A stretch of 24,504 nucleotides of DNA from the IMG/VR virus record IMGVR_UViG_3300006789_000152, positions 1 through 24,504 of that record. The stretch is one strand, 5' to 3'. This document shows, one piece after another, positions 181 to 17,152 of this stretch; the stretch's first letter is position 1, and every line of letters starts with the position of its first letter. Below the pieces are notes generated by a model, which saw only the letters and a list, made by a program, of their open reading frames with translations, was not told where the DNA came from and did no database searches. Position numbers and translations under genes: made by a program. The stretch is from a virus.

Positions 181-1521
181 TTATACTCCCGCATATTGTT
201 TCATTTCAAACCCAAATACATCTCGTCTATATTCTGGTAAGTCTTCTCCTTCAATACGATACAAGATATGCCCCGTTAATTCATATAGTGCTGCTGCTAA
301 CCATACTACATTATCACTATAAGAATTGTCGCAAGAAAGTTTCCATTCTTCTGAGTTAGGACTTAAAAATAAACATGCCCCTTGACATAAATGAAGAACA
401 GGACATTTAGGGCATTCATCCCTATCTGACCAGTGAGTTCCTGTCTTGATATTCACATCTTTCAAATTATCCATCGTTCCAATATGATGTGAAATACCAT
501 CTGGGTTTTCAGATGAAATTGTGACATTCTGGCAAGTGGTGACATTACCATTCAAATCAACTGCCATTGTCTCTGGAGAATCCATTCCACATTTTTGTTG
601 TAAAGAACTAGATGGTTTTTGTTCTTTCAGTGAATTTAAGAAGAAATCTATTTTTTGATTTAAAATACTAAATTGATGTATTTTTCTGTCCATTATTTCT
701 CGAAATGCCTTACGTCTATATTTTATATGTTCCTCGTTGTTTTTCCATGACATCGATGCACCGCCTTCATCGTAAGCATCAACAGTTCCGCCCTCTCCTA
801 TTGTTACCATCCCAAAATTATTTCGTATCCACCTCTGAACTTCTGCACGCCTATCATTATTTTTATGAATCATAGCACCAACAGCAAATCGGTTCTCTGG
901 AACTAAAAGGTTTCGTAATTTAAAAAGCCATTTCTTTTTTTCAGGATCATCTAATGGATCAGGTCCTCTCGTCTTTTGTCCAACACCATCATGTGAAATA
1001 GAAACACTAAATTTGTATTTCTGAATGAAATCAATTATTTCTTGATTAATTAAAGAACCATTTGTAATAACACTAAATGTTGCTTTTGGATATTTCTCAT
1101 GAAGTTGCTCTGTTATCATTTTCATTTTTGGAAAATACAAAAATGGCTCTCCACCCCATAACTCAAAGTGTAACGTTTCACCAACTGTTACATTATCAAA
1201 TCTTTTAACAAATACAGAAATTTCTTCTGCCGTCTTTTCATCTTCATCCTCATGTTTATAATTATCATCTGGATTACGAGGAATAAATCTTTGCGAACAA
1301 TACTCACATGAATAATTACATTTAAGTCCTAATTGTATTTTAATCTTTGTTAAATTTCGTTTTCCTGCATCCATTTTATAAAATGGAATCCAGTCTTTAA
1401 AAACATCTTGTGCAAGAACAATATCACCATTCTCGTAACGTAACTCTGACGTAGAATTATCATAATTAAGAATTAATTCTGTTCCTTCTTTTTCTTTTTC
1501 TAAATAGAATTTAAATTTCAT
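181..1521 (-). CDS. Radical SAM protein with SPASM domain (peptide/protein maturase type)
   Basis: The 446-residue protein has the radical SAM cluster motif C68-x3-C72-x2-C75 (CNYSCEYC), which binds the 4Fe-4S cluster that cleaves S-adenosylmethionine. The GGEP motif is at 123-126. The C-terminal part matches the SPASM cysteine pattern closely: C311, then G325-x4-C330, then C370-x2-C373-x5-C379-x3-C383, then C397, so it should hold two auxiliary 4Fe-4S clusters. SPASM enzymes such as sulfatase maturases and sactipeptide synthases act on peptide substrates, so a peptidyl substrate is the best guess. An N-terminal stretch of about 60 residues precedes the barrel. The start overlaps the end of an oxygenase gene by ATGA, indicating co-translation. 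It is the last enzyme of a modification cluster behind the tail genes. All expected cysteines are present, so it should be active; the substrate is unknown. Confidence 0.93.
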   Translation of the reverse strand: MKFKFYLEKEKEGTELILNYDNSTSELRYENGDIVLAQDVFKDWIPFYKMDAGKRNLTKIKIQLGLKCNYSCEYCSQRFIPRNPDDNYKHEDEDEKTAEEISVFVKRFDNVTVGETLHFELWGGEPFLYFPKMKMITEQLHEKYPKATFSVITNGSLINQEIIDFIQKYKFSVSISHDGVGQKTRGPDPLDDPEKKKWLFKLRNLLVPENRFAVGAMIHKNNDRRAEVQRWIRNNFGMVTIGEGGTVDAYDEGGASMSWKNNEEHIKYRRKAFREIMDRKIHQFSILNQKIDFFLNSLKEQKPSSSLQQKCGMDSPETMAVDLNGNVTTCQNVTISSENPDGISHHIGTMDNLKDVNIKTGTHWSDRDECPKCPVLHLCQGACLFLSPNSEEWKLSCDNSYSDNVVWLAAALYELTGHILYRIEGEDLPEYRRDVFGFEMKQYAGV

Positions 1522-2225
1522 AATAATGGTCTTAAATTTATTAACTTAATTAATGTTGGATGTATTTGTGATTCTCTACTTATTTTAAAATTAACAACTA
1601 AACACACTCTTAGTCCTGCTTGGGTATGTGTATTTGTCTCATGCCAAACGTACCCTGGGTGTATTACAGTAAGACCATTATATGGACTTATTTTTATAAT
1701 ATCCGCTCTAGTATCACCTTCAGGGCATAGATTAGTTGGTCTAGGATCTAATAGTATTAGATTTCCGCTATAATCCGTATCTAACGGCGGGGCGCCTTCA
1801 TCATTTTCTACATAAAATTCATTACCTACTGTTAAATAATGTATTAATGTTCCGTCAACATTAGTATGTCGATGTGGTTCTAATCTTTTATCATGTGACA
1901 ATTGTATTTTGCTAGTACAATGAGCTTCTACTTGTACTGTTTCATTAAATCCCCATGCTTGTTTAATATACGCTTTAATAACTTTACTAATAATAAGTTC
2001 GAACCTATATACAGATTTAAAGATATTTGTTTTATTCTCAGTATTGCCAGTATACTGAGTGTAATCAAATAAATCTATGCATGAAGGCACTGGTTCTTTT
2101 GTAGTTATCCTTTTAGAATAGTTAGTTACAACCCATTGAATTAAATCTTTTCTTACATCTTCTGGAAGATCAATTGCTAGCTGACCAATAGGGGTAGCCC
2201 ATTCTTCTGTAATTTGTAAGTTCAT
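1518..2225 (-). CDS. 2OG-Fe(II) oxygenase-like protein, paralogue 1 of 5
   Basis: The 235-residue protein has the pattern seen in all five tandem paralogues. It opens with a WATPIG-like start (residues 9-14), then a basic PHRH motif (H118, H120) followed by DGTLIHYLTVG, an LLDPRP motif (159-163), and near the end PGYVWHETN (H195) with R206. These fit the jelly-roll metal site (histidine pair near strand 2, distal histidine, 2-oxoglutarate-binding arginine) of the phage 2OG-Fe(II) oxygenase family related to TIGR02466. The expected reaction is oxygen- and 2OG-dependent hydroxylation; the substrate is not known. The stop overlaps the start of the radical SAM gene by ATGA, and the gap to paralogue 2 is 7 bases. 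Family assignment rests on motifs read by eye. Confidence 0.8.
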   Translation of the reverse strand: MNLQITEEWATPIGQLAIDLPEDVRKDLIQWVVTNYSKRITTKEPVPSCIDLFDYTQYTGNTENKTNIFKSVYRFELIISKVIKAYIKQAWGFNETVQVEAHCTSKIQLSHDKRLEPHRHTNVDGTLIHYLTVGNEFYVENDEGAPPLDTDYSGNLILLDPRPTNLCPEGDTRADIIKISPYNGLTVIHPGYVWHETNTHTQAGLRVCLVVNFKISRESQIHPTLIKLINLRPLL

Positions 2226-2232
2226 ATCATTC

Positions 2233-2925
2233 TTAAATCATAGGTCTTGAAGGTTTAGCCTCATCTGAAGTTGGATTTCTCATTAGTTCTCTTGTTGGTT
2301 CAATTGAAGTATTTTCTAAAACACCTGGAGCAATATCAAAATTAACAACAAGACTTATTCTAAGTCCAGATTTTGTATGAGAATTAGTTTCATGCCAAAT
2401 ATACCCAGGCTGAATTACAGTTGTTCCTGCTACTGGTCTTATAGTTCTAGCCTTATTATTATAAGGATAACTAACATTTGGTCTAGGATCTAACAGCATG
2501 AGATCACCACTATAGTCATTATTTATACTAGTATAATGCATTTCCTCGTTTTCAATAAAATATTCATTGCCTACTGTTAAATAATAAATTAAAGTTCCAT
2601 CAGCGTTATCATGAAAATGGGGCTCTACTCTTCTCCTATGAGGTTGTTGAATATGACTAAGACAATGTATTAGCATACCTATATTTTCATCTAACCCCCA
2701 TGCCTCTTTTACATACTCTCTTATTAGTTTAGAAACAATCATTTCAAATCTATAAACTGCTTTAAAAATATGTATTTGTGAATCAGAAGCATACTTTGTA
2801 TAATTAAAAAGATCTAAATTTGTAGCTGATGTAACACACTGAACTAGTGAATCCCTCATTGATTTGGGTAAGTTAATTTCAGTTTTTCCTATAGGAGTTG
2901 ACCAAAGTTGTTGGTAGTTCATCAT
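2233..2925 (-). CDS. 2OG-Fe(II) oxygenase-like protein, paralogue 2 of 5
   Basis: This 230-residue protein shares the family layout: WSTPIGK near residue 8, PHFH followed by DGTLIYYLTVG in the middle, LLDPRP, then QPGYIWHETN and GLRISLVVNF near the C-terminus. The presumed iron ligands and the 2OG-binding arginine are all kept. It is closest in text to paralogue 1. A C-terminal extension of about 25 polar residues ending RPMI is not shared. Its first 47 bases overlap the end of paralogue 3 in another frame, so the two are probably translationally coupled. The start at 2925 is a double ATG (MM). Substrate unknown. Confidence 0.8.
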   Translation of the reverse strand: MMNYQQLWSTPIGKTEINLPKSMRDSLVQCVTSATNLDLFNYTKYASDSQIHIFKAVYRFEMIVSKLIREYVKEAWGLDENIGMLIHCLSHIQQPHRRRVEPHFHDNADGTLIYYLTVGNEYFIENEEMHYTSINNDYSGDLMLLDPRPNVSYPYNNKARTIRPVAGTTVIQPGYIWHETNSHTKSGLRISLVVNFDIAPGVLENTSIEPTRELMRNPTSDEAKPSRPMI

Positions 2926-3634
2926 GGTTTTTTGTTAAAATAGTAAAGGATACAGCAACTAAAACTCTTACTCCTGCCTTAGTATGAGTATTAGTTTCGT
3001 GCCAAACATATCCAGGGTGAATTAAAGTAAATCCTTTTGTGGGTGTAACTACAAAATATTGGTTATTACCGGGGTACCCTTCTCTTGCAATAGTTACTCC
3101 TATATTACAGGGCCTAGGATCTAATAATATTAGATCCCCACTAAAATCCGTGTTTAAAGGTGGACGAGAAGGAGACCCATCAGAATATTTTTCTAAATCA
3201 AATTCTCCACCTATTGTTAAGTAATGTACTAAAACTCCATCCCAACCATGATGGTAATGAGGAGCTGTTCTTCTTCCAAATGTTTGTTGTACATTACCAA
3301 ACCCCCTAGCTTTTATTTCAACATTCTTATCAGCATCCCACGCCTTATGAATATAATCTCTAATTACATTAGATATAATTTTTTCAAAATCCTTAACTTG
3401 TTTAACTTCATTCTCGTCAGAATATCTAGAACAATCAAATATGTTGTAAATTTTTCTTTCAAATAATTCTGATTCAGTTATTGTTCCAATTTTTCCATCA
3501 TAAGTATCTTCAGTAAATACATGATCTTGTTTTTTTATTATATCAATAAGCGTAATTCTCATTTCTTCTGGTAAATCAATATGTCCTTCCGCTATAGTTG
3601 ACGGCCATTCCTGATCAATTTTTAACTTATTCAT
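2879..3634 (-). CDS. 2OG-Fe(II) oxygenase-like protein, paralogue 3 of 5
   Basis: The 251-residue protein has the conserved EWPSTIAEGHIDLPEEMR start, the PHYHHGWDGVLVHYLTIGG core, LLDPRP and HPGYVWHETNTHTKAGVR. The metal and cosubstrate residues are present. Compared with paralogues 1 and 2 it carries an insertion near residues 35-65 and a longer segment before LLDPRP, so substrate loops probably differ. It ends only after overlapping the next gene by 47 bases, and it starts directly after the stop of paralogue 4. Two plus-strand open frames inside it are shadows of its codon pattern. Confidence 0.8.
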   Translation of the reverse strand: MNKLKIDQEWPSTIAEGHIDLPEEMRITLIDIIKKQDHVFTEDTYDGKIGTITESELFERKIYNIFDCSRYSDENEVKQVKDFEKIISNVIRDYIHKAWDADKNVEIKARGFGNVQQTFGRRTAPHYHHGWDGVLVHYLTIGGEFDLEKYSDGSPSRPPLNTDFSGDLILLDPRPCNIGVTIAREGYPGNNQYFVVTPTKGFTLIHPGYVWHETNTHTKAGVRVLVAVSFTILTKNHDELPTTLVNSYRKN

Positions 3635-4414
3635 TTAACCTCTTAATGGCTTACTTAATTCATTGTACCCATGCGACATAATTCTAAAATTAACAACAAT
3701 ACAAATTCTTGTACCTTCACCAAGCCAAGGATTGGTTTCATGCCATAAATAGTTGGGGTGAATTATGGTAAGTCCCATTCTTGGGGATACGGTATGTACT
3801 TTTTCCCAGTATGGATAATTAATTGCAGGTCGTGGATCAGTAAATAATATTTTATGTGTGCCATGTCGAGGAGATTTTTCAGCCCCTTCCATTAAATTTC
3901 CGTCTCCTACAGCAAGATAATGTATTAAAACACCGCTAGTATCTTGATGATAATGGGGATAAGTTCTTGCACCTGGTTGTTGGACATTACCAAAACATCT
4001 ACCCTCAATTCTAAGATCATCAGCTTGCTGAATCCCCCATCCTTTACGAATATAGTAGCGAATCATTTGGCAAGCAACTTGTTCAAACTCTAAAATAGAA
4101 TCTTTAGCAAAAGGATACTCATCACAATCATCAAAAAGATTATAATGAGTAGTAGCGTAAAATCCTTTAGCTTCTGCAATAGAATAAAAATCAGGATTCG
4201 TTTGTTTTACTTCACTTAGAGCTGTTTCTTTTAATTCAAGAACTTTACTAAGATCCTCGACCATGTTGGGAGGAAGTTTTGTATCACTTTCAAAAAAGGG
4301 AGTAGTAAATTTTTGTTCTATCTTTGAGAAATTGTCTAGTGGGTGGGTGGTTGTATCTTTAGGTTCTTCTGTTATATTTTCATAAAATGCTATATGCTCG
4401 GGTTTTGTTATCAT
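3635..4414 (-). CDS. 2OG-Fe(II) oxygenase-like protein, paralogue 4 of 5
   Basis: The 259-residue protein is the most divergent of the five. It keeps PHYHQDTSGVLIHYLAVG, TDPRP, HPNYLWHETN and TRICIVVNF, so the presumed active site is intact, but LLDPRP is changed to LFTDPRP. About 35 extra N-terminal residues precede the FTTPFF segment that replaces WATPIG. A pairing of G-R-C-F-G-N-V-Q-Q before the histidine motif links it with paralogues 3 and 5. It abuts paralogue 3 with no gap. Its ATG overlaps the stop of a possible 29-codon frame at 4411-4500. No strong ribosome-binding site is seen upstream, so it may depend on coupling. Confidence 0.78.
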   Translation of the reverse strand: MITKPEHIAFYENITEEPKDTTTHPLDNFSKIEQKFTTPFFESDTKLPPNMVEDLSKVLELKETALSEVKQTNPDFYSIAEAKGFYATTHYNLFDDCDEYPFAKDSILEFEQVACQMIRYYIRKGWGIQQADDLRIEGRCFGNVQQPGARTYPHYHQDTSGVLIHYLAVGDGNLMEGAEKSPRHGTHKILFTDPRPAINYPYWEKVHTVSPRMGLTIIHPNYLWHETNPWLGEGTRICIVVNFRIMSHGYNELSKPLRG

Positions 4415-4500
4415 AAGTCATTTAAAATGAAGATCATCAAAGAGAGTTTAGTATCGCATTCATCGTTTGCAATAGCAAAATCGTGACTATAATAACGCAA
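4411..4500 (-). CDS. Possible 29-residue ORF, or in-frame extension of the preceding gene
   Basis: The gap between paralogues 5 and 4 is 95 bases in an operon whose other gaps are 0-8 bases. It holds an open minus-strand frame from a TTG at 4500 to a TGA that overlaps the next ATG. The peptide ends SLMIFILNDL. The frame is the same as that of paralogue 5, separated from it only by that gene's TAG stop and three codons. It could be a tiny coupled gene, a remnant of a longer C-terminus, or chance. No Shine-Dalgarno site is visible. Confidence 0.2.
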   Translation of the reverse strand: MRYYSHDFAIANDECDTKLSLMIFILNDL

Positions 4501-4509
4501 CTGTGTATC

Positions 4510-5379
4510 CTATACTAAAGGCTTTACTATACCAGAATTATTCCTCGTTAATACGCGATAATTAACAACAACCGCTGCTCTGATGCCTGTACCAACATAT
4601 GTATTTGATTCATGCCAAAGATAAGCAGGATGAAAAATAGTTGTTCCTACTTTCGGTTCAAATGCAATTGCTTTATTATCATAGGGGTAACTAACAGCAG
4701 GTCGTGGATCTTGTAACAACATGTTACCTGAACCTTCACATGGTAAATTATCTTTAGATAATTCAAATGATCCGTAATCAGCAACCTTGTTATCTTTTAT
4801 TGGTTCAATTTCTGCATTACGGGGGATAATTAATAATTCTTCATTACTTGTATCTTCACCTTTAATATCAAACTCTCCACCAAGCGTTAAATAGGTAATC
4901 ATTACACCATCAAAACCGTGATGATAATGAGGATAAGTACGTCTACCATTAGTTTGCATATTACCAAAAGCACGAGCTTCTAAATTCATTGATTCAGTAT
5001 TTTTAGTATCCCAAGAATTTGCAATATAGTATCTAATCATTTCGGAAGCAATTTTTTCAAAGCCACGAATATGTTGTCCAACTTCTTTATCTTCCCCAAA
5101 CTCAAACATATTGTAATGATTTGCTTCAAACTCTGGTGTTTGTGTTTTCTTATGAGTACCCATTGTGGTGCAATAACCACGTGAAGCAATAAACTTAATA
5201 AGACCTATTCTCATTTCTTCAGGTAAATTAAGTTCCATTTCACCTACAGGTGTTGCCCATTGGGATGTAATTTTCATATGACCCGCAAGAGGATGTTCTT
5301 TTGATAAAAATTTATCTTGTTTCACAGGTTCAACAGCAGGCATATTGAACATGTCTTCTAAAACTATTGTTGTAGACAT
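4510..5379 (-). CDS. 2OG-Fe(II) oxygenase-like protein, paralogue 5 of 5 (longest, first transcribed)
   Basis: The 289-residue protein is the operon-proximal copy. After a 35-residue N-terminal extension it shows QWATPVGEMELNLPEEMR, then YPHYHHGFDGVMITYLTLGG, an insertion of about 45 residues rich in acidic and polar residues, LLQDPRP, and HPAYLWHESN with GIRAAVVVNY. The presumed ligands are kept. The insertion between the first histidine motif and DPRP is unique among the five and probably forms an extra loop near the active site. An AAGGGG ribosome-binding site lies 8 bases upstream of the ATG. It follows the 336-residue virion protein by 12 bases, linking the enzyme block to the tail operon. 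Confidence 0.8.
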   Translation of the reverse strand: MSTTIVLEDMFNMPAVEPVKQDKFLSKEHPLAGHMKITSQWATPVGEMELNLPEEMRIGLIKFIASRGYCTTMGTHKKTQTPEFEANHYNMFEFGEDKEVGQHIRGFEKIASEMIRYYIANSWDTKNTESMNLEARAFGNMQTNGRRTYPHYHHGFDGVMITYLTLGGEFDIKGEDTSNEELLIIPRNAEIEPIKDNKVADYGSFELSKDNLPCEGSGNMLLQDPRPAVSYPYDNKAIAFEPKVGTTIFHPAYLWHESNTYVGTGIRAAVVVNYRVLTRNNSGIVKPLV

Positions 5380-5391
5380 TTTTTCCCCTTT

Positions 5392-6402
5392 TTAAGTTAC
5401 GGTATACTGTACATCTTCAACACCTGTAAAGTTTCTAAATCCAATCTTAACTTTAAAGGTATCGTCAGTTGCTAAACCTAGCGCAGATACTTTAAATGAT
5501 CCTAAACCATCTGTAACGGCAACTCTAGTTTTAGGAAGATACCCTCCTGTAGATTCTAAATATACAGTAGTATCTTTTTCTATAAGAGTGCCATCTTTTT
5601 CAGTCATCTTAAATTCAACCGTGTCAGACTCATCAGCAGCAATATCACCACCACCACTTGTGACAGTAAAGTGTGGCATAGCATCACCAAGTTGCCCCAA
5701 ATAGTTATAGTCAGCAGGAGCTTCCCAATCAGTAAGTATGTTAGTACTAAATCCAAATCCCTTGTTATATTTTAAGGTCACAGAACAATCCGTAAATTTA
5801 TCAGATTGAAATGGTTGATATACAAATAATGAAGCAGGAGCACCATATTGTCGTACTGAACGAAGTGGGTGGGCTTTAGAATTAAAAGTATGGGTAAGTG
5901 CATTATAAGCAGGGGAAGTTCTTGGGCAAGAAGACGACATTACACCTATTACCCAACATGCTACATCAGAGTGTTCACCGTTACGTATAGAAGGATCAGA
6001 TGGATCAATCCAAGAATAAGCACAATTACGAAACCATTGTCCTGTCAATTGTTCTGTAACACTATCTCTAATACTAGCTGGTATATTAGGAAGAAAGTCC
6101 TCACCTAATTTTTCTTCTCCAAAAATTGAACCTGCGGGCAATCTATTGTGATACACCCCTTTATTCAATTTTGGGAATTCCATATACTTAGGTAATGCAG
6201 AAAAATTTAAGCTCTTTGAGATAAGCTTTGAACTTTCTACAGTTGGAACTTGTCCTTCAACATCTAAAGTAATTTCTGCACTTTTTTCATCTAATTCGTG
6301 TCCTTCAAGTGGACTCCATATTTTTAAGCAAGCGTAGTCATCATGCACTAAATACTCTACATGAACTCCTACGGATAGACTGTTATACATTTTTTTAAAC
6401 AT
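5392..6402 (-). CDS. Putative virion/tail protein with C-terminal Ig-like domain
   Basis: The 336-residue protein has no motif that I can name over most of its length. Its last 90 residues (ADESDTVEFKMTEKDGTLI..., TTVYLESTGGYLPKTRV, then TDGLGSFKVSALGL and VQYTVT) have the rhythm of a bacterial Ig-like (Big) beta-sandwich, a domain common on phage tail and head decoration proteins. It contains several cysteines in the middle (NCAYSW, DVACWV, SSCPR), which is unusual beside most of its neighbours. It lies between the Asn/Cys-rich fibre and the first oxygenase, so it may be a virion component or a second substrate of the enzymes. The function is inferred from position and composition. Confidence 0.55.
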   Translation of the reverse strand: MFKKMYNSLSVGVHVEYLVHDDYACLKIWSPLEGHELDEKSAEITLDVEGQVPTVESSKLISKSLNFSALPKYMEFPKLNKGVYHNRLPAGSIFGEEKLGEDFLPNIPASIRDSVTEQLTGQWFRNCAYSWIDPSDPSIRNGEHSDVACWVIGVMSSSCPRTSPAYNALTHTFNSKAHPLRSVRQYGAPASLFVYQPFQSDKFTDCSVTLKYNKGFGFSTNILTDWEAPADYNYLGQLGDAMPHFTVTSGGGDIAADESDTVEFKMTEKDGTLIEKDTTVYLESTGGYLPKTRVAVTDGLGSFKVSALGLATDDTFKVKIGFRNFTGVEDVQYTVT

Positions 6403-6424
6403 TTTATAGTATCCTTTAATTTAT

Positions 6425-7135
6425 TTAACAATTACAAGCGCAGTCACAAGCGTTCCAACAATTTGAAGAAGCTAATGTAATATTAGGAGCACTAGTACTT
6501 AATGTATGGCCATTAACGCCGCCATTACAAGCGTTGGGCTTAATTGCCCCGCCTGTTCCGGATCCAGTTGTAATTGTTCCATTACCGGTTCCAGAGCAAT
6601 TAGCACAATTAGCCATCCCATTACCATTTGTTGTACAGTTGCCATGATTAGTACAGTTAGTCGTCCATGTACCGTCACCTCGAAGATAATTTCCTGAACC
6701 ACCAGTACCAGAACCTAATCTAGCTGAAGCTATCGTACCTGATCCTATTCTAGCCGCATCCATTGCTCCTGAACTAATATTATCTGCATTAGTAGTGTCT
6801 GTAGTTGCACTAGTTGCAAGGCCAGCAACCTGAGCATTTGGAAGATCAACTATTCTGGCATTTGGTAATGTACCACTTGAAATATTACTAGCACTAGTAG
6901 TATCTGTCGTAGCAGAAGCTGCTAAACCAGCAACTTGAGCATTCGGGAGATCTACGATTCGTGCGTTAGGTAACGTTCCTGTATTAATATTACTGGCATC
7001 TCTTGTATCTGTATTGGACCAGGCCGGTACATTTAAAAGAGTATTCCAGTCGGAGGCAGGTACGTTATCTAAGCCAGCTGAGATAACATCCCCGTCTGCT
7101 TCTAGTAAGTTTGCGAGTTCTCTAGCTTTGCTCAT
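6425..7135 (-). CDS. Tail-fibre protein with 35-residue repeats and Asn/Cys-rich C-terminus
   Basis: The 236-residue protein begins MSKARELANL, a start often seen on marine phage fibres. Residues 46-80 and 81-115 are tandem 35-residue repeats (SNI..GTLPNARIVDL, NAQVAGLA, SATTDTT), 31 of 35 identical, with a degenerate third copy to about 142. SGNYLRGDGTW (148-157) is a common fibre-tip linker. Residues 160-236 are strange: all ten cysteines of the protein (161, 167, 177, 180, 203, 226, 230, 232, 234, 236) and fifteen asparagines, with Asn-Cys six times and the ending NACDCACNC. This could be a metal-binding or cross-linked tip. Because a radical SAM/SPASM enzyme and five oxygenases follow in the operon, I infer that the tail may be enzymatically modified. 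The stop is well supported, with no sign of a frameshift making the Cys-rich end. Confidence 0.8.
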   Translation of the reverse strand: MSKARELANLLEADGDVISAGLDNVPASDWNTLLNVPAWSNTDTRDASNINTGTLPNARIVDLPNAQVAGLAASATTDTTSASNISSGTLPNARIVDLPNAQVAGLATSATTDTTNADNISSGAMDAARIGSGTIASARLGSGTGGSGNYLRGDGTWTTNCTNHGNCTTNGNGMANCANCSGTGNGTITTGSGTGGAIKPNACNGGVNGHTLSTSAPNITLASSNCWNACDCACNC

Positions 7136-7147
7136 CGTTTTATCCTT

Positions 7148-7624
7148 TTAGAAATTTATAAACTCAATTTTATCGGCAGTGGTGGCTCCTGCTGCAAGTA
7201 CTACCGTAGTACCATTAGTAGCCACAAAATCATTTCCCACTCCGTTTAATAATTTTACGCCATTTAAAAATACATGTAATCGTCCTGGTGTGTATACGTG
7301 AGGAAAATCTGTTTGCGCAGCTGTTGGTGTTTCAACTGTTTCTGAATACTGATCATCAGCTGCAAAATCCTCTAATAATTCCGCTGTCATTCTAAGTTCA
7401 ACAGGAATACCAGCAGAGTGTCCGCCTGCTACAGCATCACATGTAAAAGTAACCCCCGAAATAGCCGTAACTTTAACTACTTCATCGGTTAGAGATACAT
7501 ACGTCCAGTCTCCCCCACTTAAAGTAGGGAAAGTCGCTGCTGACACTACATCAAAACTAGTTGCCCCAGCGGATATTGTTGAATCTAATGTTGTATATGC
7601 ATTATTCGTAAACTTTACGCCCAT
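7148..7624 (-). CDS. Tail-fibre/appendage protein, beta-rich
   Basis: The 158-residue protein has two modules that recur in marine phage fibre proteins. The first (residues 1-75) has the form F-NNA-TTLDSTISAGATSF...FPTLSGGDW...VVKVTAISG. The second (about 100-158) reads AAQTDFPHVYTPGRLHVFLNGVKL and ends with ATTADKIEFINF. Both are beta-rich. It is probably a structural subunit of the tail tip or fibre. It lies 12 bases upstream of the repeat-bearing fibre gene in the transcript, and the two may assemble together. The family call is from pattern memory, not from a search. Confidence 0.65.
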   Translation of the reverse strand: MGVKFTNNAYTTLDSTISAGATSFDVVSAATFPTLSGGDWTYVSLTDEVVKVTAISGVTFTCDAVAGGHSAGIPVELRMTAELLEDFAADDQYSETVETPTAAQTDFPHVYTPGRLHVFLNGVKLLNGVGNDFVATNGTTVVLAAGATTADKIEFINF

Positions 7625-10459: not shown

Positions 10460-11503
10460 TTAAACAAAATAAGAACTATCACCTATCTTTCGAGGTTGGT
10501 CACCCCACATAGTTGAATCTTGAAGTTCGTCTTCCTCTTCTTCCTGCGGCCCTACTTCACTCGGCTTCCATGCATTTAATTCTGCCAACATAGTGATCGT
10601 ATCTATTTGATCATCATGTTTACTCTTAAACCCCTTTAGAGTAGCTAAAGATAATTCAAAAAGCAACTCTACAAGTTCTTTACTATCTTTTAATTCCTCC
10701 GGGAACCAAATTTTTTTAGACTTAAATAAGGGGATAGCATTTTGTTGGAATCTACTCATCTTATCCTTAGTCGGTCTAATACCTATCGTATTACTATTTT
10801 TTCCTTTAGACAACGTAAAATAAATATTGCGTTGCCCCATCTCATTCTGAATCCAACTAATAAAACCACCCTGCTGTCCTGTAGTTTCGATACCTACCTC
10901 TTGTGGTCTATATTCTTGAACTAAACGAAATAACTCATCGATAGTATTATTCATGAGGGTTCGTTTACAAAATCCGTCTACCCAAAGCCAATCCCCATTG
11001 TTATTTAAGGCCCAAACGTTGATTACACTAAAATCGGCGTGTTCTCTGTCAGATGTAGCAAAATCCGTAGTAATGTAAAAATTATAAGCTCCTCTATTTT
11101 TAAGTACGTTATTACGTTTATACCATGTAATGTCAGAGTCGTTAACCAATCGGTCTTCCTCTGATGTAATTCTTAACATTAACTCCTGATTAAATGAATC
11201 AAGTTTCCCAGCGCCTTTCGCTTTAAGGTATTGAGTATTAACGTAATCGTAACTAAATCGATCTTCCCAGGCACCTTTAAATTCTTCTTCACTACAGGGA
11301 AAGCTTTCACAGACCGGGTACACGTTAACATGCCAAACTCCAGATTCGATAGCTTTGTATAGAGGATCTTTAGCGTTAAACGGAGTCCCAGACCAAATAA
11401 CTTTCCTCTTAGCAGGATGTAATGCATAATCAATGGCAGAATAGACGGTGTTTTCAACGTTCTCAATAATAGTCGCAGACCTAGCATCTTCATCTCCTAA
11501 CAA
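10460..11503 (-). CDS. terL: Large terminase, C-terminal part with nuclease domain
   Basis: The frame encodes about 347 residues from a TTG at 11503. It begins LLGDEDARS, which continues directly the Walker B strand of the adjacent ORF. It then shows the ATPase C-terminal region (VIWSGTPFNAKDPLY, the coupling motif) and the RNase H-like nuclease: TTDFATSDREHADF with the first Asp, VGIETTGQQGGF with the Glu, and HDDQID with the last acids. This domain cuts concatemeric DNA during packaging. The only in-frame start near the junction is TTG; no good ribosome-binding site precedes it. With the 184-residue ORF it makes a normal-length terminase of about 530 residues, so this is one gene interrupted by a -1 frameshift. 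Confidence 0.9.
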   Translation of the reverse strand: MLGDEDARSATIIENVENTVYSAIDYALHPAKRKVIWSGTPFNAKDPLYKAIESGVWHVNVYPVCESFPCSEEEFKGAWEDRFSYDYVNTQYLKAKGAGKLDSFNQELMLRITSEEDRLVNDSDITWYKRNNVLKNRGAYNFYITTDFATSDREHADFSVINVWALNNNGDWLWVDGFCKRTLMNNTIDELFRLVQEYRPQEVGIETTGQQGGFISWIQNEMGQRNIYFTLSKGKNSNTIGIRPTKDKMSRFQQNAIPLFKSKKIWFPEELKDSKELVELLFELSLATLKGFKSKHDDQIDTITMLAELNAWKPSEVGPQEEEEDELQDSTMWGDQPRKIGDSSYFV

Positions 11504-12051
11504 TCATCAAGTACTGCAAGTTGCGGTCTAGTATTCAATTCAACTGTACCACGAACACCCGTCTTTGCACCATGGCCAGTAACAACAAATTCCTTGCCTT
11601 CCATATTTTTAAAATACCATCTAATATCCGTAAATCTGGATTCTTTAATAAATGATTTTAAAAATTCACTTTGTTCACATCGACGTTCCATACGAAGTCG
11701 CATTTTCTTTACACCATTTTCAATACTATCTGAAAGATATAAAGCATAATCTACCTTTCCAAATCCCGGAATCGCCCCATAAACAGCTAGATACAGGAAT
11801 AGATATTCAGCAAATATAGTAGTTTTAGCCAATCCACGAGCGCACATGTTCGCCGTGTTTTGGTTTTTGCCCGCAATTTTATCGAGCATTTTATAGTGAA
11901 TTACCGGAGTCTTATTTTCTTCTCCTTTCTCACCATTAACTAACTTAACAAATGATATAAATTCCAGGGCGAACTCACTAGGTACATAACCAGGATCATC
12001 CTTGTAATTACAATCATTTAACCACTCATCCACTGATTTTTTAGTCAGCAT
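11497..12051 (-). CDS. terL: Large terminase, N-terminal ATPase part, ends at Walker B
   Basis: The 184-residue ORF carries the packaging ATPase. The Walker A-like motif is CARGLAKTT at residues 70-78, the adenine/arginine region follows, and the Walker B strand LAVLDD is at residues 178-183. The frame stops two codons later (C, then TAG). A shift of one base back at GAT-GAT gives LAVLDD-LLGDEDARS, the expected continuation. So the sequence shows a -1 frameshift exactly after the catalytic aspartates. No slippery heptamer is visible at the junction, which argues against ordinary programmed slippage and for an indel (real or sequencing) or coupled re-initiation at the TTG. The start overlaps the small-terminase-like gene by 11 bases. 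Confidence 0.9.
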   Translation of the reverse strand: MLTKKSVDEWLNDCNYKDDPGYVPSEFALEFISFVKLVNGEKGEENKTPVIHYKMLDKIAGKNQNTANMCARGLAKTTIFAEYLFLYLAVYGAIPGFGKVDYALYLSDSIENGVKKMRLRMERRCEQSEFLKSFIKESRFTDIRWYFKNMEGKEFVVTGHGAKTGVRGTVELNTRPQLAVLDDC

Positions 12052-13428: not shown

Positions 13429-13831
13429 TGACGCCCTCCTTTTCCTGATGTAATCTTTTCATGTTTGGTCTCCTCCTTGGGTGTCCATTCACTTTTACGG
13501 TGGGTGGGCACCCCTCCTTAATTAATAAGCTGCGAATGAAGCCATTTATTAATTTATTTCCAACTCACTTACTACGAGTGTAACTAATCACGCTCCAACC
13601 GGGAAACTCACTCATGTATGTCGAGCTGAAAACTTACGCTCTATTTGAACGTAAGTTAATTTACCTCCTACCCTTAGGTAATTTAATTTACGACTTACCT
13701 TTTATAAGTGTGACGACGAGTGAAGTTATTTCCAACTCGCCTCACCTAAGTCGAGTCTGGCCTAATTTGAATATGCCTCTCACTTAGTATAAGTAGAGTG
13801 CACTTCAATTGTTTTATGGCTTACACCCACA

Positions 13832-13852
13832 TTGTTTTATAGCATAAAACAA
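13832..13852. promoter_or_regulatory. Perfect 9-bp palindrome with AGC loop
   Basis: TTGTTTTAT, loop AGC, ATAAAACAA is a perfect hairpin in DNA or RNA. Its left half repeats 23 bp upstream as ATTGTTTTATGGC (13808-13820). The short 3-base loop resembles the hairpin promoters of the N4 virion RNA polymerase, though this stem is longer and AT-rich. An operator is equally possible. Confidence 0.35.
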
Positions 13853-13874
13853 CAAATAGCAACACTTAACTTCA

Positions 13875-13932
13875 GTTTAATCTCACATTAGAGATTTAAC
13901 TACCCTGTTTAATCTCAGATATGAGAATAAAC
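13875..13932. repeat. Two tandem hairpins with 32-bp period, candidate operator pair
   Basis: GTTTAATCTC is followed after 6 bases by GAGATTTAAC (13875-13900). It then recurs as GTTTAATCTC, 6 bases, GAGAATAAAC (13907-13932). Each is a 10-bp inverted repeat with one mismatch, and the mismatch falls at a different place in each copy. Near-identical tandem dyads between divergent operons are typical of repressor or activator sites. Confidence 0.45.
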
Positions 13933-13991
13933 TATTTGTAACCTCTTCTATCTAAAGGTCTAACTCTCCTATAAGAATAAGAAGCGTCCTC

Positions 13992-14021
13992 CGGCTTTTC
14001 GCCCCTTCGGGGCTTCAGCCG
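13992..14021. promoter_or_regulatory. GC-rich hairpin with 3-base loop
   Basis: Outer arms CGGCT (13992-13996) and AGCCG (14017-14021) enclose GCCCC-TTC-GGGGC (14001-14013). The inner stem of 5 bp with a 3-base loop, purine-centred (GAA) on the minus strand, has the geometry of N4-type hairpin promoters reading right, towards the first early gene. It lacks a downstream T-run, so it is not a simple terminator. Confidence 0.35.
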
Positions 14022-14039
14022 TCGTCCTTCTTAATAATA

Positions 14040-14072
14040 AATTAATTAGCCCCACAGGGGGCGTAATTAATT
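14040..14072. repeat. Long dyad: AT-palindrome around a GC stem
   Basis: AATTAATTA-GCCCC (14040-14053), loop ACAG, GGGGC-g-TAATTAATT (14058-14072). Fourteen paired bases with one bulged G. It is symmetrical enough to act on either strand, as a bidirectional terminator, cruciform or protein-binding site between the two arms. Confidence 0.45.
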
Positions 14073-14251
14073 AGATGGTCCAGCGCCATTAGCAATTTTT
14101 TATTTTTAGGTAGAGGTGCAGTACTAACTAGCTAAATTCAAATGGCGGGATACTACCCCCGCCCCTTAAAATATAAACGATCTTTACACAAAGGACAGTG
14201 CAACATCACTTCGTCAATCAGGCTATAAACAATAAACCTTAAGGAGATACC

Positions 14252-16528: not shown

Positions 16529-17152
16529 ATGGCTGAATTTCTAGGTGTAATCGATGGAGGCATAATCAGAAAAGACGGCTACACGATTATGTCAGGCTTC
16601 ATAAACAAACCAGAAGAGGGCAATGCAGGAGTTCACACAATCCTGCAAGATTTCGACCATCTCTGGGCTATTATTGAAGCTGACAACAACTGCAATAAGA
16701 ACTACTACAATCACATAGCTACTTGGTACGGTGATGTAGATTATTCTTATACAGGTGTAAGGCACAAAGCTCAGCCGATGCCTTACTACTTCGACTGGAT
16801 CGCTAAAGATCTAGACGAAGAGCATGAATTCCCAGCAGGTTACTTTAACTGCTTACTTGCTAATCTTTACACTGGTAAAGGCATTGCACCTCACTCCGAC
16901 GACGAAGCAATCTACATGGAAAACGACGGAACCGTAGGTGCTGTTGCAACTATCAGTTTAGGAGGAACGGCGATTGCTACTATAACCCGTAAGAATCGTC
17001 CAGAACCAAACCCTCTAGCAATCAAGCTAAGAGACGGGAGCTGTTACGTAATGCCTGAAGGTAACTTCCAGAATGAATACACGCATTCGGTTAGCAAACC
17101 AGATGCTCGTAATCCTCGGAGAATTAGCTTAACTTTCAGGCATATTCCTTAA
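16529..17152 (+). CDS. AlkB-like 2OG-Fe(II) dioxygenase
   Basis: The 207-residue protein shows the AlkB family signature. NxYxxGKGIAPHSDDE gives the first metal ligands H122 and D124, THSV gives the distal H186, and RRISLTFRHI supplies the 2-oxoglutarate- and substrate-side arginines R198 and R204. AlkB enzymes remove methyl groups from 1-methyladenine and 3-methylcytosine in DNA or RNA by oxidation, and viral homologues are known. The HSDDE form is also seen in viral AlkB proteins. It is unrelated in sequence to the five oxygenases of the late operon. A strong AAAGGAGG site lies ten bases upstream of the ATG. It is flanked on both sides by structured noncoding sequence, which makes an RNA-repair or demethylation role worth considering, though that is inference. 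Confidence 0.85.
   Translation: MAEFLGVIDGGIIRKDGYTIMSGFINKPEEGNAGVHTILQDFDHLWAIIEADNNCNKNYYNHIATWYGDVDYSYTGVRHKAQPMPYYFDWIAKDLDEEHEFPAGYFNCLLANLYTGKGIAPHSDDEAIYMENDGTVGAVATISLGGTAIATITRKNRPEPNPLAIKLRDGSCYVMPEGNFQNEYTHSVSKPDARNPRRISLTFRHIP

Follow-up and report, generated by a model that had tools for sequence, protein, structure and literature searches.

A radical SAM/SPASM enzyme, often accompanied by oxygenases, probably cross-links Asn-Cys tail-fibre tips in many unrelated bacterial viruses

Introduction

A dedicated radical S-adenosylmethionine (SAM)/SPASM enzyme, often encoded together with 2-oxoglutarate (2OG)-Fe(II) oxygenases, probably cross-links the Asn-Cys tip of the tail fibre in many unrelated bacterial viruses, as judged from the gene neighbourhoods and protein sequences described here. 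The system was recognised in a 24,504-nucleotide stretch of viral DNA (IMG/VR record IMGVR_UViG_3300006789_000152, positions 1 to 24,504), referred to below as the window, which is a fragment of an N4-like podovirus carrying a phrog_38 terminase and an RNA polymerase with N4-like PHROG matches. On its minus strand, positions 181-7135 hold one series of genes running from a fibre through a 336-aa protein (here called the companion) and five 2OG-Fe(II) oxygenases to the radical SAM/SPASM enzyme; the genes lie head to tail, with spacings of 0-95 nt or overlapping ends (Table 1). A first-pass annotation, made from the letters of the window alone, had described this order and strand correctly. The cassette is read here as a transferable phage system that finishes the distal tip of the tail fibre, a reading to which we assign a probability of roughly 0.7. 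The features demonstrated at the level of sequence are the gene order, a two-way linkage between the enzyme and an Asn/Cys repeat (NC repeat), the rule that Asn precedes Cys, and the placing of this repeat, which is C-terminal or directly precedes a Hint or S74 domain.

Genetic linkage of the enzyme and the NC repeat

A profile search with the enzyme recovered 76 viral and 42 genome loci. The forward test used 95 distinct enzyme relatives scoring at least 300 bits and having at least 4 kb of upstream sequence, and a locus passed automatically when a same-strand open reading frame (ORF) carried CxCxC either terminally or immediately ahead of a Hint or S74 domain. By this rule 91 loci passed, and two others, L066 (ending NCNCY*, the asterisk marking the stop) and L038 (CxC followed by Hint), passed by eye, giving 93/95; one example of a fibre-like end upstream of the enzyme is NCNCACNC*. 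Both failures have a CxC gene elsewhere, on another contig (L112) or at the neighbouring L111 copy (L103). CxCxC fell within the last 35 residues of 98 among 844 upstream same-strand ORFs, versus 15 of 4618 others, and eight of those 15 were the same fibres lying just past 4 kb. The reverse test began from a DNA pattern for CNCxCNC-stop that was chosen without reference to the enzyme, and was applied to distinct in-frame ORFs with at least 2.8 kb of downstream sequence. The enzyme was encoded downstream of 24 of these 25 ORFs, the sole exception being a spurious 73-aa ORF. The co-occurrence of such fibre ends with SPASM enzymes, which the first-pass annotation had proposed as a check, was therefore found from both sides (93/95 forward, 24/25 reverse), and these sequence searches support the conclusion that the radical SAM/SPASM enzyme is genetically tied to the Asn/Cys-repeat fibre end.

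The fibre and its tip

All 10 cysteines of the window fibre lie within its last 77 residues, each preceded by N, A or D, which bears out the earlier description of that segment as Asn/Cys-rich; the protein terminates in CDCACNC. The locus with the first IMG/VR match of the enzyme (L003, 79%) encodes a fibre that is 65% identical overall and ends in CHSACNCACNC. The window fibre protein itself had no family match in profile scans, and the nine CxC fibres of other phages that were scanned all match tail-fibre or virion structural PHROGs. The gene at 7148-7624, next to the window fibre gene, matches tail-fibre phrog_8469. Upstream of the L003 CxC fibre lies a gene (L003:4679-5401) with Mtd_N, the N-terminal domain of the major tropism determinant and a receptor-binding protein module.

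Among 129 distinct fibres, Asn precedes Cys in 79% of cases outside the terminal tract, against 12% expected from composition and a baseline of 4.2% in other ORFs. Within the tracts, the positions between cysteines are filled by N (297), A (102), D (39), K (21), R (11) and Q (9), with few others. Cys and Asn are each written with both of their codons, mixed along the fibre repeats, so the NC repeat is a feature of the protein, with selection acting on the protein. A DNA-level repeat as the origin of the tract was considered and rejected, since the Cys and Asn codons are freely mixed.

The repeat is borne by fibres of unrelated sequence, 60-1082 aa in length, and in most of them, the window fibre included, it ends at the stop codon. 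A Hint domain follows it directly in Achromobacter/Burkholderia-type and other fibres (in phage JWF Hom_end_hint, 47.5 bits, starting at the next Cys), and an S74 chaperone domain (50.6 bits) does so in L074. Hint and S74 domains are both self-cleaving. Cleavage would expose the repeat, so that all three designs, the plain stop of most members among them, would leave it as the mature C-terminus. One CxC fibre (L031:2805-6053, 1082 aa) carries five chitin/carbohydrate-binding modules (CBM_5_12) and ends in NCNCNC. At L074, a flavoprotein of the tryptophan-halogenase type (L074:5742-7610; PF04820, 260 bits) is encoded between a fibre with a 27-fold Cys repeat, mostly CK, and the radical SAM enzyme; the fibre tips encoded there are possibly halogenated.

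The radical SAM/SPASM enzyme

The window enzyme belongs to the radical SAM superfamily by its PF04055 match (47.5 bits, cut-off 29.5) and falls in phrog_1802 (E 1.4e-58), a group labeled "radical SAM domain-containing protein" that also contains genes of Achromobacter phages 2-1 and JWF and for which PHROGs states no function. Its CX3CX2C motif at C68/C72/C75 is invariant across 123 relatives, as are seven SPASM cysteines arranged as C311-x13-G325-x4-C330, C370-x2-C373-x5-C379-x3-C383 and C397. All seven, together with G325, fit the published motif CX9-15GX4C-gap-CX2CX5CX3C-gap-C (PMC6231123) in full, and the complete SPASM cysteine set claimed at first pass is confirmed.

The auxiliary cluster I (Aux I) of the anaerobic sulfatase-maturating enzyme (anSME) is completely ligated by Cys255, Cys261, Cys276 and Cys330, while Aux I of CteB has an open site that can be occupied by a substrate cysteine (PMC6231123). 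No relative of the window enzyme, among the 123, carries a further Cys between C311 and C330; Aux I is therefore predicted to have three protein ligands, as in CteB. Gln331-Asn332 is invariant in the family where the aligned anSME sequence reads Cys-Asp-Phe; the residue after the equivalent of anSME Cys276 is Gln, not Asp, in the 123 relatives, and the 261 position holds no Cys. These two differences favour cysteine binding and thioether formation over formylglycine formation without proving it.

An AlphaFold2 (AF2) model of the enzyme (pLDDT 92) finds its best structural match in CteB (Z 23.5, 354 residues), followed by ChlB (Z 21.6), anSME (Z about 20) and TigE, with the epimerase EpeE a weaker match (Z about 12.6). 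The best NCBIfam profile is that of the ranthipeptide maturase PapB (NF047865), which scores 74.4 bits where its curated cut-off is 340; the SCIFF cut-off is not reached either, and the anSME profile TIGR03942 gives 69 bits (cut-off 349). In GenBank the enzyme of phage JWF is labelled as anSME, which has a similar fold and likewise a Cys-containing target in a large protein. anSME differs by its fourth Aux I cysteine and its Cys-Asp, and no sulfatase is present here.

The ranthipeptide/SCIFF and sactipeptide maturases CteB, PapB and RumMC share with the window enzyme a radical SAM core plus SPASM domain, and likewise have a Cys-rich dedicated substrate with acceptor-type residues (Asn, Ala, Asp, Lys, Arg) encoded beside the enzyme. 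Their substrates are small leader peptides, whereas here it would be the end of a structural fibre of 60-1082 aa; the cassette also differs in its alternating CxC spacing, its location in a virion module and the lack of an evident full recognition element (RRE) of ribosomally synthesised and post-translationally modified peptides (RiPPs). The gene neighbourhoods read held structural and lysis genes, and showed no small precursor with a leader, no transporter and no protease for processing. The cassette accordingly falls outside RiPP biosynthetic systems as defined by such a precursor with export and processing genes, and the earlier term "RiPP-like" is apt only by analogy between enzyme classes.

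The companion protein and the oxygenases

The companion family occurs in 72/95 enzyme loci, frequent but optional. Its AF2 model (pLDDT 91) contains a C-terminal immunoglobulin (Ig)-like domain of about 90 residues that matches glycoside hydrolase family 2 (GH2) beta-galactosidase and intimin Ig domains (Z 10-12). At full length the companion matches only unnamed phage proteins, and it is therefore probably a virion protein. No PDB relative of its N-terminal domain appeared among the structural matches listed, which the Ig-like domain filled, and searching companion and oxygenase profiles against PDB by sequence gave no convincing relative. The protein encoded between fibre and enzyme in phage JWF was considered as a diverged companion and rejected as unrelated.

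All five predicted cassette oxygenases match phrog_81 (E 5e-6 to 2e-16) and keep PHxH...WHE...R, the conserved His/His/Arg motif; two exceed the PF13759 cut-off and three are sub-threshold. Their earlier description as TIGR02466-like survives as a weak match of one of the five, at 20 bits against a cut-off of 62.5. Oxygenases are present in 58/95 enzyme loci and are thus optional. The companion is found in 56 of those 58 (Fisher P 3e-9, shared ancestry uncorrected), and oxygenase presence follows that of the companion gene, not differences between tips. Marine relatives encode further oxygenases of another family (PF13640) within the cassette. Outside the cassette, the window encodes a sixth, unrelated 2OG-Fe(II) oxygenase, AlkB-like by its PF13532 match (16529-17152, plus strand; 56.7 bits). 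Phage 2OG-Fe(II) oxygenases have been proposed to act in host nitrogen and 2-oxoglutarate control (PMC3037559, PMC9602691), and the functions of the viral enzymes have not been specifically investigated (PMC9602691). The cassette enzymes belong to the same family as those of marine phages (PF13759, phrog_81) and share the multi-copy habit of T4-like cyanophages. Whereas the marine phage enzymes have been read as agents of 2-oxoglutarate control, their location here inside a fibre-tip cassette suggests protein tailoring.

Table 1. Positions of the cassette genes and of the motifs discussed in the text (window coordinates).
Feature	Position	Strand	Evidence
Tail-fibre-like protein, 236 aa, proposed substrate	6425..7135	-	Family relatives match tail-fibre PHROGs
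Asn/Cys-rich fibre tip, residues 158-236, end CDCACNC	6428..6664	-	10 Cys, each after N/A/D
Companion, 336 aa: phage-specific N-terminal domain + C-terminal Ig-like domain (residues 243-336)	5392..6402	-	
2OG-Fe(II) oxygenase 1, 289 aa	4510..5379	-	phrog_81 E 5e-6; PHxH/WHE/R kept
2OG-Fe(II) oxygenase 2, 259 aa	3635..4414	-	PF13759 39.8 bits; phrog_81
2OG-Fe(II) oxygenase 3, 251 aa	2879..3634	-	phrog_81 E 3e-12; motif kept
2OG-Fe(II) oxygenase 4, 230 aa	2233..2925	-	PF13759 29.2 bits; phrog_81 E 2e-16
2OG-Fe(II) oxygenase 5, 235 aa	1518..2225	-	phrog_81 E 4e-10; motif kept
Radical SAM/SPASM enzyme, 446 aa, proposed tip-modifying enzyme	181..1521	-	PF04055, phrog_1802, AF2 model, CteB match
Radical SAM cluster motif C68-x3-C72-x2-C75	1297..1320	-	Invariant, 123 relatives
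SPASM domain, C311 to C397, seven invariant cysteines	331..591	-	Alignment of 123 relatives

Distribution and exceptions

The module recurs in podo-, sipho- and T4-like phages and in prophages. At L003, where a long structural protein on the contig gives matches to T4-like marine myoviruses, the order is that of the window with four oxygenases: fibre, companion, oxygenases, enzyme. In the annotated-phage collection, close enzyme relatives (41-44%) occur only in Achromobacter phages JWF and 2-1, which have a long tail of the tape-measure type and the order fibre with an NCNCDC-type repeat exactly before Hint, another gene, and enzyme. The window fibre, companion and first oxygenase had no match among the annotated phages by tblastn, so that cultured phages with the window's own version are absent from that collection. 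An independent genome sample gave enzyme matches in 7/399 and 4/391 prokaryote genomes, centre genomes included. The new loci L249, L250, L254, L255, L256 and L257, with an intact enzyme and full upstream sequence, all have an NC repeat nearby. One Thalassobacter stenotrophicus genome holds three full and one partial enzyme copies (L107, L110, L113, L116).

A chromosomal branch of the enzyme family, partly decayed and once beside flagellar genes, is without an NC substrate. Its members in Burkholderiales are L262:7968-9332 (beside flgK), L263:756-2159 and L264:978-2375, in genomes that encode no CxC protein; L263 lacks the cluster motif, and another chromosomal relative, L266, is truncated. 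The first-pass annotation had named enzyme-bearing relatives devoid of any Asn/Cys-rich protein as what would speak against its proposal; the repeat is kept in 93/95 loci, and a few chromosomal relatives do lack it. The rule joining enzyme and NC repeat is strong for phage copies and is not universal for the protein family.

Outside the cassette, the large terminase of the window (10460-12051) is divided between neighbouring ORFs (11497-12051 and 10460-11503) that match separate halves of phrog_38, which may reflect a frameshift, an intron remnant or a natural split. The interval 13430-14250 has no listed ORFs, GC skew and gene direction switch there, and it is likely a divergent control region.

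Proposed mechanism and alternatives

In the proposed mechanism, the fibre bears Asn-Cys pairs and has a repeat of (Asn/Ala/Asp)-Cys as its end. The radical SAM/SPASM enzyme would recognise this end and modify the Cys-X-Cys repeat, probably while the fibre is still in the cytoplasm and virions have yet to assemble. That the enzyme acts on the repeat is very probable. The likeliest reaction would bond the cysteine sulphur to a carbon of Asn, Ala, Asp, Lys or Arg acceptors, giving sactionine- or ranthionine-type thioethers, and thioether formation within the repeats is favoured with some confidence. The thioether acceptors of ruminococcin C1 are Asn, Ala, Lys and Arg (PMC8172795), those of freyrasin and NxxcA are Asp and Asn (PMC8326336), and the X residues of the fibres (N>A>D>K>R>Q) overlap this reported set. 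The product would be a rigid, redox-stable host-contact tip, which would rather probably serve adsorption or stability. The companion, a virion-like protein, may assist or decorate the tip, and the oxygenases may provide a second, optional tailoring by hydroxylating the tip, the companion or neighbouring fibre parts; whether they act on the same assembly is evenly balanced. The earlier proposal that the enzymes together serve the fibre tip is supported for the radical SAM/SPASM enzyme, linked to the NC repeat in both directions, and stays conjectural for the oxygenases, which are optional and track the companion.

Several observations weigh against this interpretation. Known thioether rings span more residues than bonding between adjacent partners in C-X-C would need, and no full RRE domain is evident in the enzyme, whose N-terminal ~55 residues show only three strands in the model. 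The mean column identity of the enzyme family, 39%, leaves room for different chemistries within it. Two chromosomal copies with intact motifs, L262 and L264, have no CxC protein genome-wide except one spurious 52-aa frame, and so the family can exist without an NC substrate, or with an unrecognised one. Oxygenases are absent from 37/95 loci, and their presence makes no useful difference to the residue before Cys (63% versus 69% Asn).

Four alternatives were weighed. The enzyme might act on the NC repeat and yield a product other than a thioether, namely formylglycine (an aldehyde) from Cys, epimerised residues or C-C cross-links. Both profile and structure place anSME with the nearest families, the cyclophane enzyme ChlB is close in fold, and strict residue alternation would suit an epimerase too. 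Against these stand, for formylglycine, the lack of a Cys between C311 and C330 and the Gln331-Asn332 pair, set against the four-Cys Aux I and Cys-Asp-Phe of anSME, together with a TIGR03942 score far under its cut-off; for an epimerase, the weaker match to EpeE; and for C-C cross-links, the non-aromatic X residues, many cyclophanes needing aromatic ones. A non-thioether product is accordingly judged unlikely. A further departure would make the CxC repeat a metal, Fe-S or disulphide tip resembling metal-binding fibre and spike tips, with the enzyme modifying another target such as the companion. If the fibre is trimeric, its alternating cysteines would all point the same way, which could allow metal sites to stack, and the companion is itself conserved (72/95). 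This explanation is improbable, given that the companion family went undetected in 23/95 loci that nonetheless encode the enzyme, while the NC repeat accompanies it in 93/95, and that JWF encodes an unrelated protein in the companion's place; moreover, Asn before nearly every Cys is not known as a rule of metal sites.

Doubts about the oxygenases run deeper, and it is almost an even prospect, falling slightly short of one, that they are unrelated to the tip; their substrates would then be the companion or other virion proteins, or they would adjust the 2-oxoglutarate of the host, a role suggested for cyanophages. Their optional occurrence and their association with the companion (56/58 oxygenase loci) fit this view, as does L027, where a companion paired with an oxygenase lies away from the enzyme, and the 2-oxoglutarate idea is a published one (PMC3037559). 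A metabolic role nevertheless leaves unexplained why up to five different paralogues sit between a fibre gene and a fibre-tip enzyme, on podovirus as well as myovirus contigs; no observation speaks against the version in which the companion is the substrate. Finally, gene exchange in phage tail regions is block-wise, and enzyme and fibre end could be hitch-hiking neighbours with no functional link; this is very improbable, because searches run independently from the enzyme and from the tail both recovered the pairing, across podo-, sipho- and T4-like phages as well as prophages, and because the repeat sits on fibres of unrelated sequence. The reading retained is that of a fibre-tip finishing cassette. 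Its widest form, in which a horizontally exchanged, widespread viral system uses the radical enzyme and optional oxygenases to rebuild fibre ends as cross-linked contact tips that mature at a natural stop or by Hint/S74 cleavage, could with equal justice be accepted or doubted.

Implications for phage host recognition

A search of the open-access literature, with subscription papers and preprints outside its reach, found no description of a radical SAM system for tail-fibre ends, and the passages searched in a 2024 study of RiPPs in phage-host interactions contain no mention of one (PMC11118758). Enzymes of this class are known; a radical SAM system dedicated to fibre ends seems to be without earlier description. 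The substrate rule is a clean one, Asn-Cys and C-terminal, that cultured phages and inducible prophages make testable. The cassette further suggests for phage 2OG-Fe(II) oxygenases a role that experiments could test and, if the reading is true, an explanation for the many "2OG oxygenase" genes of marine phages. Radical SAM peptide chemistry would then extend to virion structural proteins, and viruses would have, in cross-linking of the fibre tip, a hitherto unrecognised means of building the ends that contact the host. If many tips are chemically rebuilt, receptor-binding models that use sequence only would miss the actual contact surface, with consequences for host range as read from fibre sequences, and such modification would constitute a general post-translational layer of phage host recognition.

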